Positions 46,765 through 52,994 of a stretch of 64,000 nucleotides of DNA are shown in pieces. This DNA comes from Terriglobia bacterium (GTDB taxonomy: Bacteria; Acidobacteriota; Terriglobia; UBA7540). Under the pieces are notes generated by a model. It was not told the origin of the DNA, searched no databases, and saw only the letters and a list, made by a program, of their open reading frames with translations. Location: positions 124,001-188,000 of the forward strand of contig DASTAW010000039.1 in NCBI GenBank assembly GCA_035712365.1. Reading direction: 5' to 3'. The position numbers and the translations under genes were made by a program. Numbering within the stretch: the first letter of the stretch is position 1; the number at the start of each line of letters is the position of its first letter.

Positions 46765-46946
46765 CCCGAAACGCGGGTGAGTTCTGAGACCACTTGTGTG
46801 AACGTGGAGGTCACGCGGTCTTGGAGAATCTCGGAAGCGAATCCGTTACAATGGGCCAGCCTGGCCGCAATGTGCGCTCGAGAGAAGTTAGCAGATAGTC
46901 CTTGATTTGCATCCCTGACAAGGACATCGAAATTGCGAACAGCGTC

Positions 46947-48779
46947 ATGGAAAAAGGCGACAGAAAATCCGCCCACAGGTTTCGCATCTGGGACCTGCTC
47001 AAGCCACACTCGAAAGCTTTTGCAATCGGATTGCTTGCAGCGGTCGGCGAAAGTGCCGCCGGACTGCTCGAGCCGTGGCCACTGAAGATCGTAATCGATA
47101 ACGTGCTCCGGTCGAAATCCGGGCACGGATGGTTGAACGAATGGATTTTTTCCACTATCGGAACGGACAAGACCGCCATTCTGGAATTCGCCGTCGGCTC
47201 CCTCGCCCTTATTGCTCTTCTGGACGCCCTCTGCTCGTACGAAGAAAGCTTTCTAATGGCCAGTGTCGGCCAGTGGGTCATGCACGATCTGCGCCGGATG
47301 CTCTACTCGCACATCCACCGGCTCTCTCTTGCTTACTATGACCAGAAGCAAACTGGCGATCTGATCAGCCGGATCACCGGCGACATCGATGCCATCCGAA
47401 GTTTCATCACCACCGCCGCGCTTGGATCTTTGGTCGACGGAATAACGCTCTTCGGCATGCTCGGCGTGATGTTGTACCTGGACTGGCGATTTACCCTTAT
47501 CGCCCTTTCAATTTCACCTGTCCTCTTTGTCATTGTTTATTCGTATACACGCCGGATCAAGAAAGCGTCACGGCAGGTACGCAAGAAGGAGGGTGAGATC
47601 ACCTCCATCGTGCAGGAAGTCCTTTCCTCGATGCGAGTGGTCAAGGCGTTTGCACGTGAGGATTATGAGGAGCGCCGATTTGAAGCAGAAAGCCTCGAAA
47701 GTGTCGAAGCAGGATTGTGCGCGCGTAATCTGAAAGCCAGGCTTACGCCTCTGGTGGGCATCGTAGTGGCCACCGGCACGTGCCTGGTCCTATGGTTCGG
47801 AGCGCAGGCAGTCATGAGCAACAGGCTCTCGGTAGGTTCACTCATCGTTTTCATTCTGTACCTCGGCAAAATGTACAAGCCGATGCAAAACCTCTCAAAA
47901 ATGACGGACACGTATTCGAGAGCTGCCGTTGGCTACGAACGCATTCGCGAAGTCCTCGAAACGGACCCCTTGATCAGGGACGTTCGCAAAGCGCGCTCTG
48001 CTCCGCGCTTCAAAGGCAAAATTGAATTTGAGGACGTCAGCTTCAATTATGTCAATGGCCCGCCGGTGCTGAAAGATCTCAGCCTTCAGATTGGACCTGG
48101 ACAGGTGGCCGCTCTGGTAGGCCCGACGGGCGCTGGGAAGACCACCATCATCAGCCTTGTTGCCCGTTTTTATGAACCGGTCTCGGGAAATGTAAAGATC
48201 GATGGCCACAATATTCGGACCTTCCGCGTGAAGTCTCTGCGGAGTCAGATCAGTTTTGTTCTGCAGGAAACTCTGCTTTTTCGAGCTACGGTCTGGCAGA
48301 ACATCGCTTACGGGAAGCCGGAAGCCAGGCGGGCTGAAATCCTCCGGGCTGCCGAATTGGCAAACGCGCACGAGTTTATTGAGAAACTGCCCGAAGGTTA
48401 CGATACATTGATTGGCGAGCGCGGGGTGACGCTCTCGGGCGGCCAGCGTCAGCGTATTGCCATCGCGCGCGCCATTATCCGCGACACTCCGATTCTCCTT
48501 CTGGATGAGGCAAGCTCAGGGCTTGATGCAAATTCAGAGAAGCTGGTGTTCGAAGCATTAGACCGCCTGATGGAGGGGAAGACCTGTGTCGTTATCGCGC
48601 ACCGGCTCTCAACCGTCCGCCGCGCTGACATTATTTATGTGGTGGACAATGGGACCATTGCAGAAAGTGGAAAACACCAGGAGCTATTGGACGCCCGCGG
48701 CCTCTACGCGAAGCTCTACGAGATCCAATTCCGCGGGGACCTGGCGGAGCCGGAGACTTCACGAAGAGGCGCACCGTAA
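46947..48779 (+). CDS. ABC exporter with fused membrane and ATPase domains (MsbA/ABCB type)
   Basis: A half-transporter of about 610 residues. Six membrane helices lie in the first 330 residues (AFAIGLLAAVGESAAGLLEP, FAVGSLALIALLDALCS, TLFGMLGVMLYLDWRFTL, GIVVATGTCLVLWFGAQ). The ATPase domain has Walker A GPTGAGKTT (about 391-399), the signature LSGGQRQR (about 496), Walker B PILLLDEASSGLD and the H-loop VIAHRLST, so it appears active. It would work as a homodimer to export a lipid, peptide or drug. The frame begins with a TTG at 46902; the ATG at 46947 is chosen, but neither has a strong ribosome-binding site. Confidence 0.93.
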   Translation: MEKGDRKSAHRFRIWDLLKPHSKAFAIGLLAAVGESAAGLLEPWPLKIVIDNVLRSKSGHGWLNEWIFSTIGTDKTAILEFAVGSLALIALLDALCSYEESFLMASVGQWVMHDLRRMLYSHIHRLSLAYYDQKQTGDLISRITGDIDAIRSFITTAALGSLVDGITLFGMLGVMLYLDWRFTLIALSISPVLFVIVYSYTRRIKKASRQVRKKEGEITSIVQEVLSSMRVVKAFAREDYEERRFEAESLESVEAGLCARNLKARLTPLVGIVVATGTCLVLWFGAQAVMSNRLSVGSLIVFILYLGKMYKPMQNLSKMTDTYSRAAVGYERIREVLETDPLIRDVRKARSAPRFKGKIEFEDVSFNYVNGPPVLKDLSLQIGPGQVAALVGPTGAGKTTIISLVARFYEPVSGNVKIDGHNIRTFRVKSLRSQISFVLQETLLFRATVWQNIAYGKPEARRAEILRAAELANAHEFIEKLPEGYDTLIGERGVTLSGGQRQRIAIARAIIRDTPILLLDEASSGLDANSEKLVFEALDRLMEGKTCVVIAHRLSTVRRADIIYVVDNGTIAESGKHQELLDARGLYAKLYEIQFRGDLAEPETSRRGAP

Positions 48780-48795: not shown

Positions 48796-49869
48796 TCACT
48801 GGTCATTAAGCTCTGCGATTCTCTCGAGGACAACCTTGGAATACCCTTCCACTTCTTCTGGCGTATATCCGGCGGCCCGGAATGCGTCGTCAATCTGCTC
48901 AGGCGACAACTGTGCCAGAAGATGCCCGATCCACTGGACGTCTTCTCGGGGAACATTTTTGCAAACCTGTCCCATCTGCAGCCGGACGATGTACTCCGGC
49001 AGGTTCAGGAAGAACAGGAGAGGTGGCTTTGCGGGAAGATTAAAGTCGACATAATCGGACCCAGCTTTTCCGATGAATTTTGAGCCTCTGTAGGCTTTGA
49101 GACTGCCTGCTGACTTCGTATGCATCCAGCCGCGCCCTCCGGAGCCAAAACTATCTCCCACGTCGCTGACGAGGTAGACAAGGCGACGCCCGCTATCTGA
49201 AGTTTCCGAGAGTGAATCCTCATCATAAATGGCGTTATTCTGGTTTTTCACGTCCCAGTTGTTGACGAAGGCCATCATGACTCGCAGCCCATTCAGTTGG
49301 CGGGTCCCGCTGAAGGGGTTTGACTCCCAGTTCCACTGTCCCACTTTTTTCTGGCCCTTCAAATATCGTTCCAAGCGCCCACCGCGGACCTCGCCTCCCG
49401 GTCCGATCCACTCCTGCCCCCTATGGAGATGTTCGGGCATTCCCTTTACATGGAATAGCGGCAGAAAGTAATCCTCGTCAGCCTGGTAACCAACCGCCCA
49501 GATCAGGCGTGTAGCTACGGTTTCCGGCTGGGCCTCTGGCCCCAGCTTGACCTTCCACTTTGTGCCGTCCCGGCCCCGAACAATAAATTTAGGGCTTGTC
49601 CCGTCGAGGTCTTCCTTAATAAAAGTGAAAGCGGTGTCGGGCTGGTGCTCCTTGCCGCCGGGTCCGAAAAATAGATTTCGGCGCCGAATATCTGTTGGAG
49701 GAGACCAAAGAAGGACATTTACATGCCCGGAAATAGCTTGTCCTGGCCGGGTCGCTCCCTTTCCTTTTTTCAGGGCAGCATGTAAATTTGAAACAACTGC
49801 CACGATGGCAAGAAGATAGATTAGCCGCCTTAAACCCCTCAATATCGGGACTCTGCGGATGTGAGACAT
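48796..49869 (-). CDS. Membrane-anchored protein with kinase-like motifs
   Basis: A 357-residue protein with an N-terminal membrane or signal segment (LRRLIYLLAIVAVVSNLHAA). It is not a known family to me, but motifs occur in protein-kinase order: FIVRGRDGTKWKVKLG with Lys106/Lys108 as an ATP-lysine candidate, Glu116 in a following helix, NNWDVKNQNNAIY with Asp206-x-Lys208-x-x-Asn211 like the catalytic loop HRDLKxxN, and YLVSDVGDSFG with Asp236 like DFG. A helical C-terminus ends LSPEQIDDAFRAAGYTPEEV. The topology would put the domain in the periplasm. The start follows GAGGAG at about 14 bases. Kinase activity is a hypothesis only. Confidence 0.6.
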   Translation of the reverse strand: MSHIRRVPILRGLRRLIYLLAIVAVVSNLHAALKKGKGATRPGQAISGHVNVLLWSPPTDIRRRNLFFGPGGKEHQPDTAFTFIKEDLDGTSPKFIVRGRDGTKWKVKLGPEAQPETVATRLIWAVGYQADEDYFLPLFHVKGMPEHLHRGQEWIGPGGEVRGGRLERYLKGQKKVGQWNWESNPFSGTRQLNGLRVMMAFVNNWDVKNQNNAIYDEDSLSETSDSGRRLVYLVSDVGDSFGSGGRGWMHTKSAGSLKAYRGSKFIGKAGSDYVDFNLPAKPPLLFFLNLPEYIVRLQMGQVCKNVPREDVQWIGHLLAQLSPEQIDDAFRAAGYTPEEVEGYSKVVLERIAELNDQ

Positions 49870-50152: not shown

Positions 50153-51238
50153 ATGATGCTGGTCGTACAGCCCGATGACGGGGTCAATGAGCTGATTAAG
50201 GGAATTGATTCCGCCAAAACGACCATAGAAATTACGATTTTCCGCTTTGACCATCGGAAGATCGAGAGTGCCTTGACTCACGCGGCAAAGCGAGGAGTCT
50301 TTGTTCACGCGCTGATCGCATCCGTCAGCAGCGGAGGCGAGAAATATCTGCGCAAGCTTGAGATGCGTCTGCTGGACCAGGGCATCACTGTGGGTCGAAC
50401 TGACAACAATCTGGCGCGCTATCATAGCAAGCTGATGATTATTGACCGCCAGGTGCTCTACCTGATGGGCTTCAACGCCACCTATCTGGACATCGCCCGC
50501 AGCCGCAGCTTTGGGATTATCACGAAGAGCAAACCAATCGTTCAGGAAAGCGTCAAACTGTTTGAAGCGGATGCAAACAGACGGTCTTATGTGGCCGGAC
50601 TCGAAACGCTGGTGGTGAGCCCGGCGAACGCCAGAAAGCAGCTTACTGTTTTCCTTCGCGGAGCCCGAAAGCAACTGCTGATCTACGATCCGAAAATCAG
50701 CGATATTCCCATGATCCACCTGCTCCAGCAGCGTGCGCGCGCAGGAGTGGAAGTGAAAATTATCGGAAAGGTGACTCATCACCACGAAGAGTTAACGGTC
50801 CGGAAGCTGCCAAGCATAAGGCTGCACACACGCACGATCATTCGCGATGGGCAACGGGCCTTCATCGGAAGCCAGAGTTTGCGTGGAATTGAGCTGGATG
50901 GGCGCAGGGAAGCCGGATTGATCTTCGAGGATGCCAAGGTGATTGGCGTCCTCCTCAAGACCTTTGAGAAGGACTGGGCAATGGCAACCATGGGCGCCCT
51001 TTCGAAGGAGCAGAGGAGCGTGTCCACAAGCAAGACTGCAAAACACCTGGTTAAGGTGGTTACCCAGGAGAACGCCTCCCTGGCCGAAATCATTAAAGGG
51101 TCCCTCGAAGAAGCCGTGGGCACAAATGGCGATGTTAAAGTCAAGCATAAGAAAGTCGAACGGGAAGTCAAAAAGGCAGTCAAGGCAGTAATTGATGAAA
51201 CTCTTACCGACGCCATGAAGGACGTAAAGCGAAATTGA
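50153..51238 (+). CDS. Phospholipase D-like protein (two HKD half-sites)
   Basis: A 361-residue protein. The first half has His91-x-Lys93-x4-Asp98 (RYHSKLMIIDRQ), the second His225-x-Arg227-x4-Asp232 (RLHTRTIIRDGQRAFIGSQS), where the usual Lys is Arg. GFNAT after the first and GSQS after the second are family features. There is no signal peptide, so a cytoplasmic phosphodiesterase or nuclease-like role is possible. A C-terminal extension of about 60 charged residues (KVKHKKVEREVKKAVKAVID) is helical. AGAGG precedes ATGATG; 50156 is an alternative start. Confidence 0.85.
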   Translation: MMLVVQPDDGVNELIKGIDSAKTTIEITIFRFDHRKIESALTHAAKRGVFVHALIASVSSGGEKYLRKLEMRLLDQGITVGRTDNNLARYHSKLMIIDRQVLYLMGFNATYLDIARSRSFGIITKSKPIVQESVKLFEADANRRSYVAGLETLVVSPANARKQLTVFLRGARKQLLIYDPKISDIPMIHLLQQRARAGVEVKIIGKVTHHHEELTVRKLPSIRLHTRTIIRDGQRAFIGSQSLRGIELDGRREAGLIFEDAKVIGVLLKTFEKDWAMATMGALSKEQRSVSTSKTAKHLVKVVTQENASLAEIIKGSLEEAVGTNGDVKVKHKKVEREVKKAVKAVIDETLTDAMKDVKRN

Positions 51239-51454: not shown

Positions 51455-52042
51455 ATGTCTATGCGAGGGCGAAACCGGGTCGCAGTGACGTTGGGAGCCA
51501 TATTGGTTCCGGCTGTCCTGGCAACGGGTGCGGCCGCCTCCGGCCAGCATCAGCGCGTCAATCAGCAATCCGCGATCGTCGCCGACTTCCAAAAGCGAAT
51601 TGAGAGCTACATGAAGCTGCATAAAGCGGCCGCGGGGCAACTGCCGGCACTTAAGTCAACAGCTTCCCAGGCGAAAATACTGGACTACCAGCATGCCCTT
51701 GCAGCCAGGATTGTAGCTGCCCGGCCCCACGCCACTCGGGGCGAAATCTTCACTCAGCCCGTCGCGGCAGAGTTCCGCCGCCTGATCCGTACTACCATGA
51801 CTGGCTCGCGCGCGGGGCGGATTCGTTCCAGCCTGCAGCGTGGAGCGCCCGTCAAGTCGAACATTGAAGTCAATCATCCGTATCCTGCCGCGACTCCTGT
51901 GGAAACAACTCCTCCTTCGCTTTTGCTGAATCTGCCAAAACTTCCCACGGAATTGGAGTACCGCGTAGTTAACCACGACCTGGTTCTCCATGACGTTAAA
52001 GCAGACCTCGTGGTCGATTTTGTCCCCGAAGCGGTCCCGTAG
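51455..52042 (+). CDS. Secreted protein of unknown function
   Basis: A 195-residue protein with a signal peptide (NRVAVTLGAILVPAVLATGAAASG). The mature part has a helical first half (IVADFQKRIESYMKLHKAAA, ILDYQHALAARIVAARPHAT, FTQPVAAEFRRLIRTTM) and a Pro-rich second half ending YRVVNHDLVLHDVKADLVVD. This resembles small acidobacterial secreted proteins with no assigned role. The ATG at 51455 follows GAAGGTG. It precedes the metallophosphoesterase on the same strand by 22 bases, so co-expression is likely. Confidence 0.75.
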   Translation: MSMRGRNRVAVTLGAILVPAVLATGAAASGQHQRVNQQSAIVADFQKRIESYMKLHKAAAGQLPALKSTASQAKILDYQHALAARIVAARPHATRGEIFTQPVAAEFRRLIRTTMTGSRAGRIRSSLQRGAPVKSNIEVNHPYPAATPVETTPPSLLLNLPKLPTELEYRVVNHDLVLHDVKADLVVDFVPEAVP

Positions 52043-52064
52043 TTCTTCAAGTTTGAGGTACTTC

Positions 52065-52994
52065 ATGCGATTTCGTGCCTTGCTTTTGCTTATTGGCGCA
52101 CTGTCTCTTAGCCGCTGCGGCATCCCGGGAGCATCTCCGAACATGCTGTCTCCCTCGGCAGAGAAGGCCGCAGGTGAGCTGGGGAGCAATCCACCAGCGC
52201 TCGCCTTTCCGCTCAAAAAGAACTCCGTCCGGTTTGCCGTCATCGGCGACAACGGGACCGGCGGACCCGACGAATACACTGTCGCCCGGGAGATGGACCG
52301 CTACCATGAATCGTTTCCATTCGATTTTGTGATCATGCTCGGGGACAACATTTACGGCGGCCACAGTCCTGCGGATCTGGAACGGAAGTTTGAGGGGCCG
52401 TACAAGCCGCTGCTGGACCAGGGAGTGAAGTTCTATGCGTCGCTGGGCAATCACGATTGGCGCAATGAACGATTTTATAAACCATTCAACATGGACGGCC
52501 GGAGCTATTATACCTTTAATAAAGGCAACGCCCGCTTTTTCGCGCTCGACAGCAATTATATGAACCCCGAGCAACTCGATTGGCTCAAACAGCAACTTCA
52601 GGCTTCATCCGCGAAATGGAAGATATGTTTCTTTCACCATCCTTTGTACTCTGACGCCAAGTATCATGGGCCCGACCTCGACTTGCGGGCCCAACTGGCG
52701 CCAATTTTTGAAAAGTATGGAGTGAATGTGGTCTTTTCAGGCCATGACCACGTCTACGAGAGGATCAAACCTCAGAACGGCACCTACTATTTTGTGGAGG
52801 GCAGCGCCGGCCAACTGCGTTACCACAACTTGCGGAGACCGTCGCCTGAAATGGCAGCCGGTTTTGATACAGATCGCACATTTATGATCGTACAGATTGC
52901 CGGCAGCGATCTTTTCCTTCAGACTATCTCACGGACAGGTAAAATAGTGGACCACGCTGAAATCACCCTGAACACCAATCTTTCCAGTCGTTAA
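52065..52994 (+). CDS. Metallophosphoesterase (purple acid phosphatase-like lipoprotein)
   Basis: A 309-residue calcineurin-like enzyme with a lipobox-like LSLSRC. All five metal-site motifs are present: FAVIGDNGTGG, FVIMLGDNIYGG, YASLGNHDW, CFFHHPLY and FSGHDHVYER. The last, with Glu-Arg after HDHVY, is characteristic of the acid phosphatase branch. It would hydrolyse phosphate esters at the outer face of the membrane. The ATG at 52065 follows GAGG; upstream frames belong to the preceding gene's region. Confidence 0.9.
   Translation: MRFRALLLLIGALSLSRCGIPGASPNMLSPSAEKAAGELGSNPPALAFPLKKNSVRFAVIGDNGTGGPDEYTVAREMDRYHESFPFDFVIMLGDNIYGGHSPADLERKFEGPYKPLLDQGVKFYASLGNHDWRNERFYKPFNMDGRSYYTFNKGNARFFALDSNYMNPEQLDWLKQQLQASSAKWKICFFHHPLYSDAKYHGPDLDLRAQLAPIFEKYGVNVVFSGHDHVYERIKPQNGTYYFVEGSAGQLRYHNLRRPSPEMAAGFDTDRTFMIVQIAGSDLFLQTISRTGKIVDHAEITLNTNLSSR

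Follow-up and report, generated by a model that had tools for sequence, protein, structure and literature searches.

The product of the gene P0001, on the minus strand of the 64,000-nucleotide stretch analyzed here (the window), belongs, with a probability of about three in four, to a family of exported enzymes that has no name as yet and has a kinase fold of the HipA/CtkA/PI3K type. It would phosphorylate a target in the cell envelope, with exported phosphatases as its counterparts. The observations behind this reading are the conservation of the active-site motifs, export signals that recur throughout the family, a remote similarity to HipA-type kinases and a conserved gene linkage. The family as a whole is best read as new extracytoplasmic HipA/CtkA-like kinases within a phosphate-handling module. 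To our knowledge, few bacterial enzymes of this sort have been described, and kinases dedicated to work outside the cytoplasm are little known.

The open reading frame is real, and every residue named in the preliminary description (K106, K108, E116, D206, K208, N211, D236 and G238) is found at the position given there. The gene and its parts are as follows.

48796–49869, minus strand: P0001, predicted extracytoplasmic kinase-fold protein of 357 aa from the ATG (open reading frame and translation, 69-member alignment, HipA profile match)
49762–49869, minus strand: signal peptide or membrane anchor, approximately residues 1–36, MSHIRRVPILRGLRRLIYLLAIVAVVSNLHAALKKG (from the sequence; a hydrophobic N-terminus is common to the family)
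49522–49566, minus strand: N-lobe motif, residues 102–116, GTKWKVKLGPEAQPE, with K108 as the equivalent of the beta-3 lysine, the invariant E112, and E116 as the equivalent of the alpha-C glutamate
49234–49263, minus strand: catalytic-loop motif, residues 203–212, NNWDVKNQNN, with D206, K208 and N211, aligned with the N-x-D-x-H-x-x-N loop of HipA
49144–49167, minus strand: metal-binding motif, residues 235–242, SDVGDSFG, with D236 and G238, aligned with the aspartate of the HipA YD-[FL] motif

A GTG codon is located two codons 5' of the ATG, and a GAGGAG sequence precedes it by 6 nt, a better spacing; translation may start there and give a protein of 359 aa. A scan for promoters and terminators gave no excess over shuffled sequences.

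Conservation among homologues shows that the motif is more than chance. The alignment holds 69 domain sequences from many families; 58 of them, with P0001 in their number, belong to subfamily I and 11 to the distant subfamily II. Nine positions are invariant in all 69 (G69, K108, E112, G127, W179, L195, D206, D236 and G238, in P0001 numbering). E116 is retained in 68 of the 69; position 211 is Asn in 60 and Gln in 9; K208 is lysine in 59 and substituted in the other 10. Thus the proposed kinase-order motif stands as part of the conserved core once K106, which varies among the aligned members, is dropped from it, while E112, missing from the original list, proves invariant. The residues that match kinases rank with the family's best-conserved positions and are kept even in subfamily II, and their order is that of the PKL superfamily (beta-3 Lys and alpha-C Glu, then the catalytic Asp, then the Asn and Asp that bind metal).

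Such a complete catalytic set argues for genuine phosphotransfer. A kinase fold with another transferase activity or none, as in an AMPylating enzyme, a nucleotide sensor or a binding pseudokinase, would also explain the motifs. ATP, the presumed donor, is considered scarce beyond the cytoplasm, the periplasm included, which counts against a kinase reading of P0001 and in favor of such a protein. AMPylation and glutamylation by kinase-fold families give it a precedent (PMC10870513). We regard this alternative as unlikely, as the phosphotransfer residues are kept in nearly all members, unlike in typical pseudokinases.

Signal-like N-termini, which recur throughout the family, support the prediction that the protein faces the periplasm. 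The N-terminal segment of P0001 is a genuine hydrophobic stretch, and in a crude scan a strongly hydrophobic N-terminus recurs in 59 of the 69 members, some of the misses probably being due to the trimming rule of the scan; AxA-like sites are present in 49 and lipobox-like ends in a few. Two members are fused to other domains within a single open reading frame: L129 includes an Omp85 barrel, and L109 a PAP2 phosphatase. Subfamily II has seven invariant cysteines that subfamily I lacks, as expected for an oxidizing compartment. Export of the family, which would place the catalytic domain outside the cytoplasm, is supported at the level of sequence. At the N-terminus of P0001 an anchor and a signal that is cleaved off look alike; the segment may be a cleaved signal instead of the anchor first proposed.

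Profile comparison places the family nearest to HipA. In HHalign, the family profile scores 33.9 against the HipA proteins that occur in the phylum, with a pairwise E of 0.001 and a probability of 20%. One hundred column-shuffled family profiles give a mean of 14.5 (sd 2.6, maximum 23.3), the reversed profile gives 15.1, and seven unrelated neighbor families, used as decoys, score 10.9–25.9 against the family profile. Two pairs of kinase-fold families reach 35.9 (FAM20/PI4K-like to HipA) and 39.1 (CotH to HipA) in the same test. The register is correct. The HipA lysine pairs with K108 and its N-lobe glutamate with E116; D206 and N211 lie within the N-x-D-x-H-x-x-N loop, and the aspartate of YD[FL] pairs with D236. 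At the head of this alignment stands the HipA protein L052, for which the PDB contains matching HipT structures.

CotH scores 30.1 against the family (null 15.3), above all shuffles, over a short stretch around the catalytic loop. CotH and FAM20-like proteins were considered as closer relatives and set aside, as their profile scores are weaker than that of HipA. CotH (PF08757) and FAM20C are likewise kinase-fold enzymes, with proteins of surfaces or secretory compartments as their targets, and neither the CotH nor the Fam20C Pfam profile matches the P0001 family. CotH-profile proteins form a separate family, present in 8 of 80 genomes of the phylum (L032–L042) and absent from that of P0001; several kinase-fold families therefore coexist in the phylum. 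Another exported-looking family, PI4K/FAM20-like (L043–L051, about 290 aa, weak PF00454 matches), carries the motifs NxDRNxGN and IDHxRAF and in one protein (L046) lies fused behind a metallophosphoesterase-like domain. Its score of 21.9 against the P0001 family is about that of the highest shuffle (21.8), and we treat it as separate.

As judged by sequence, then, the nearest kinases are of the HipA/CtkA type. HipA/HipT (PF07804) and CtkA of Helicobacter pylori share with the family the order and register of the catalytic K, E, D, N and D. There are differences as well. The family lacks a match to the PF07804 (HipA_C) profile, its similarity to HipA being remote with the active site in register, and its catalytic loop reads NNWDxKxxNN where HipA has NxDxHxxN. 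HipA and HipT are cytoplasmic, whereas the P0001 family appears signal-bearing, from its signal-like N-termini and the Omp85 fusion; CtkA is linked to a T4SS (PMC5536186), and the P0001 family carries signals instead. No HipB- or HipS-like partner was noted among the recurrent neighbors, which are PLD, phosphatase, ABC and PPK1 genes. As for the type of kinase, the HipA-type match holds, all five catalytic residues being in register, and a classical HRD/DFG protein kinase does not: the classical Ser/Thr kinase family (PF00069) gives no Pfam match, NWD replaces HRD, and no GxGxxG precedes K108. By profile the family lies outside the HipA, CotH, FAM20 and classical kinase families, and its active-site anatomy suggests that it would act like the HipA/CtkA group.

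Structure prediction and a fold search for kinase lobes gave a mixed answer. AlphaFold models of P0001 and of its relative L001 were each built from two-sequence input. The P0001 model (pLDDT 36.5) has weak globin matches and no kinase match. The L001 model, also of low confidence (pLDDT 45.6, pTM 0.47), has CtkA as its best structural match (3akk/3akl; Z 7.4 over 202 residues, rmsd 6.5), followed by HipT (8ezr/8ezs/7vkb; Z 5.3 and 5.2), HipA (3dnt; Z 4.7) and PI3K chains. A Z below 8, where the CtkA match falls, can reflect merely a common arrangement, and we therefore take the L001 model as corroboration and not as proof. Foldseek returned no match for this model at E≤0.001; its top rows are mostly kinases, with probabilities near 0.1. 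The poor P0001 model and the lack of any library profile that matches the protein are what would be expected if the K..E..D..N..D..G order were a coincidence in an unrelated exported family. This we hold to be very improbable: the matching residues are among the family's most conserved, the HipA score exceeds all shuffles and decoys with the register correct, and the better of the two models, that of L001, ranks HipA-type kinases first.

Of 297 genomes from the phylum, 37 have homologues, many of these genomes with more than one paralogue, and in a maximum-likelihood tree subfamilies I and II split with full support. The C-terminal region is the family's own and is conserved, with the motif Q-x-x-DAFRAA. 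A scan of genome contigs yielded one relative, L001; tblastn against plasmids and a scan of viral contigs found none. P0001 has no match in Pfam (E≤1) or NCBIfam and no meaningful one in PADLOC, and the family profile matches no PDB sequence. When 31 members were scanned singly against the profile libraries, only scattered weak matches appeared, HipA_C not among them. A search of the accessible literature found no paper on such a family, which other databases may contain. By comparison with Pfam, NCBIfam and the PDB, the family appears to be unnamed.

Several genes around P0001 are predicted to handle phosphate. The PLD-like and metallophosphoesterase genes described earlier across a divergent junction are indeed there, and the phosphate-related neighborhood noted in the window is conserved well beyond this genome.

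46902–48779, plus strand: MsbA-like ABC exporter (PF00664/PF00005, MsbA-type models), convergent with P0001; a conserved neighbor
50153–51238, plus strand: PLD-superfamily protein with no signal peptide (PF13091, E=1e-26), divergent from P0001; a conserved neighbor
51455–52042, plus strand: small exported protein of 195 aa between the PLD and phosphoesterase genes, conserved in alignment
51990–52994, plus strand: calcineurin-like metallophosphoesterase, probably exported (PF00149, E=7e-21); the likely true start is at about 52065, MRFRALLLL

The survey covered 65 family loci, mostly within about 6 kb. The family member had the PLD-like gene nearby in 21 and the metallophosphoesterase in 18; the gene for the small exported protein was close by in 9, one for a PTP-type phosphatase that is exported in 10, and PPK1 in 4, where it directly adjoins the member (L086, L131, L138 and L139). 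Among genomes that bear the PLD gene, 28 of 29 also have the kinase-like gene, with 3.6 expected (hypergeometric probability about 2e-30, uncorrected for relatedness), as do 23 of the 30 that bear the phosphoesterase. In two loci (L120 and L126) one strand carries the kinase-like gene and then, in succession, those of the PLD protein, the small exported protein and the phosphoesterase, an operon-like arrangement. In two others (L142 and L144) the trio of PLD, exported protein and phosphoesterase occurs with no kinase-like gene nearby; the kinase-like gene is therefore a frequent and non-obligatory partner of the trio.

This neighborhood also bears on the main rival of our reading, in which P0001, though exported and a kinase, would act on a lipid or a small molecule (LPS, lipid A, a phospholipid or an inositol phosphate) and not on proteins. 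The MsbA-like exporter, the PLD protein, the PAP2 fusion and a Siw14-like phosphatase would then serve one chemistry, that of lipids or of inositol phosphates. In 12 loci, the one in the window and 11 others, the family adjoins this ABC exporter or a close homologue; the neighboring PTP-type phosphatase gives Y_phosphatase2 and PTPlike_phytase matches; and these features, the PAP2 fusion of L109 and the PI3K chains among the structural matches of L001 are consistent with such a substrate. However, most family loci have no exporter, the PLD protein lacks a signal peptide and so would work in another compartment, and no lipid-binding element was identified. A lipid or small-molecule substrate is the less likely reading.

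Returning to an exported kinase of the HipA/CtkA type, the full set of kinase residues, the conserved phosphate-handling cluster and the evidence for export together indicate that P0001 probably phosphorylates something outside the cytoplasm. Weighing on the other side are the missing Pfam, NCBIfam and PDB sequence matches, the HHalign probability of 20%, the low confidence of both models, the substitutions at K208 and the loci in which the PLD and metallophosphoesterase genes occur with no kinase-like gene nearby. We infer the fold of P0001, its catalysis, its substrate, its phosphate donor and the relationship of kinase to phosphatase along the following lines. P0001 would be made with a signal peptide or anchor that places its catalytic domain outside the cytoplasm. 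There K108 and E116 would hold the phosphates of the nucleotide, D206 of the NNWDxKxxNN loop would act as catalytic base, and N211 and D236 would bind the metal. The phosphate would go to a component of the envelope, in all likelihood a protein, and the co-encoded exported phosphatases (the metallophosphoesterase here, the PTP-type enzyme in other genomes) would take it off or recycle it. With ATP in short supply there, the donor might be an unusual one, for instance polyphosphate or nucleotides that are exported, and the PPK1-linked members hint at this; the linkage in four loci may point to a connection with polyphosphate. A broader proposal, that the family is the kinase half of an envelope phosphorylation system widespread in the phylum, reversed by the co-encoded exported phosphatases and perhaps fed by polyphosphate or exported nucleotides, is highly speculative and decidedly unlikely as it stands.

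The family is conserved and testable, with intact predicted active sites and adjoining exported phosphatases, and it is nameless in Pfam and NCBIfam. If active, it would point to reversible phosphorylation of the cell envelope across a large phylum, and it raises the general question of how extracytoplasmic kinases are supplied with a phosphate donor.

Some features of the neighboring genes deserve mention in their own right. In the PLD-like protein the first HKD motif is intact and the second reads HxRx4D, with Arg in place of Lys, as it does in the relatives examined. PADLOC matches would identify this protein as DrmC, which we rejected since they look like generic PLD similarity. The small exported protein at 51455–52042 has no Pfam family at a meaningful E-value, and its C-terminal end is conserved as LPxLPxELEYRxVxxDLxLxDVxAxLxVDF. 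At four loci (L090, L091, L134 and L136) the family has another neighbor, which in L136 carries MshEN, DUF3616 and FHA domains, the last of these being binders of phosphothreonine.
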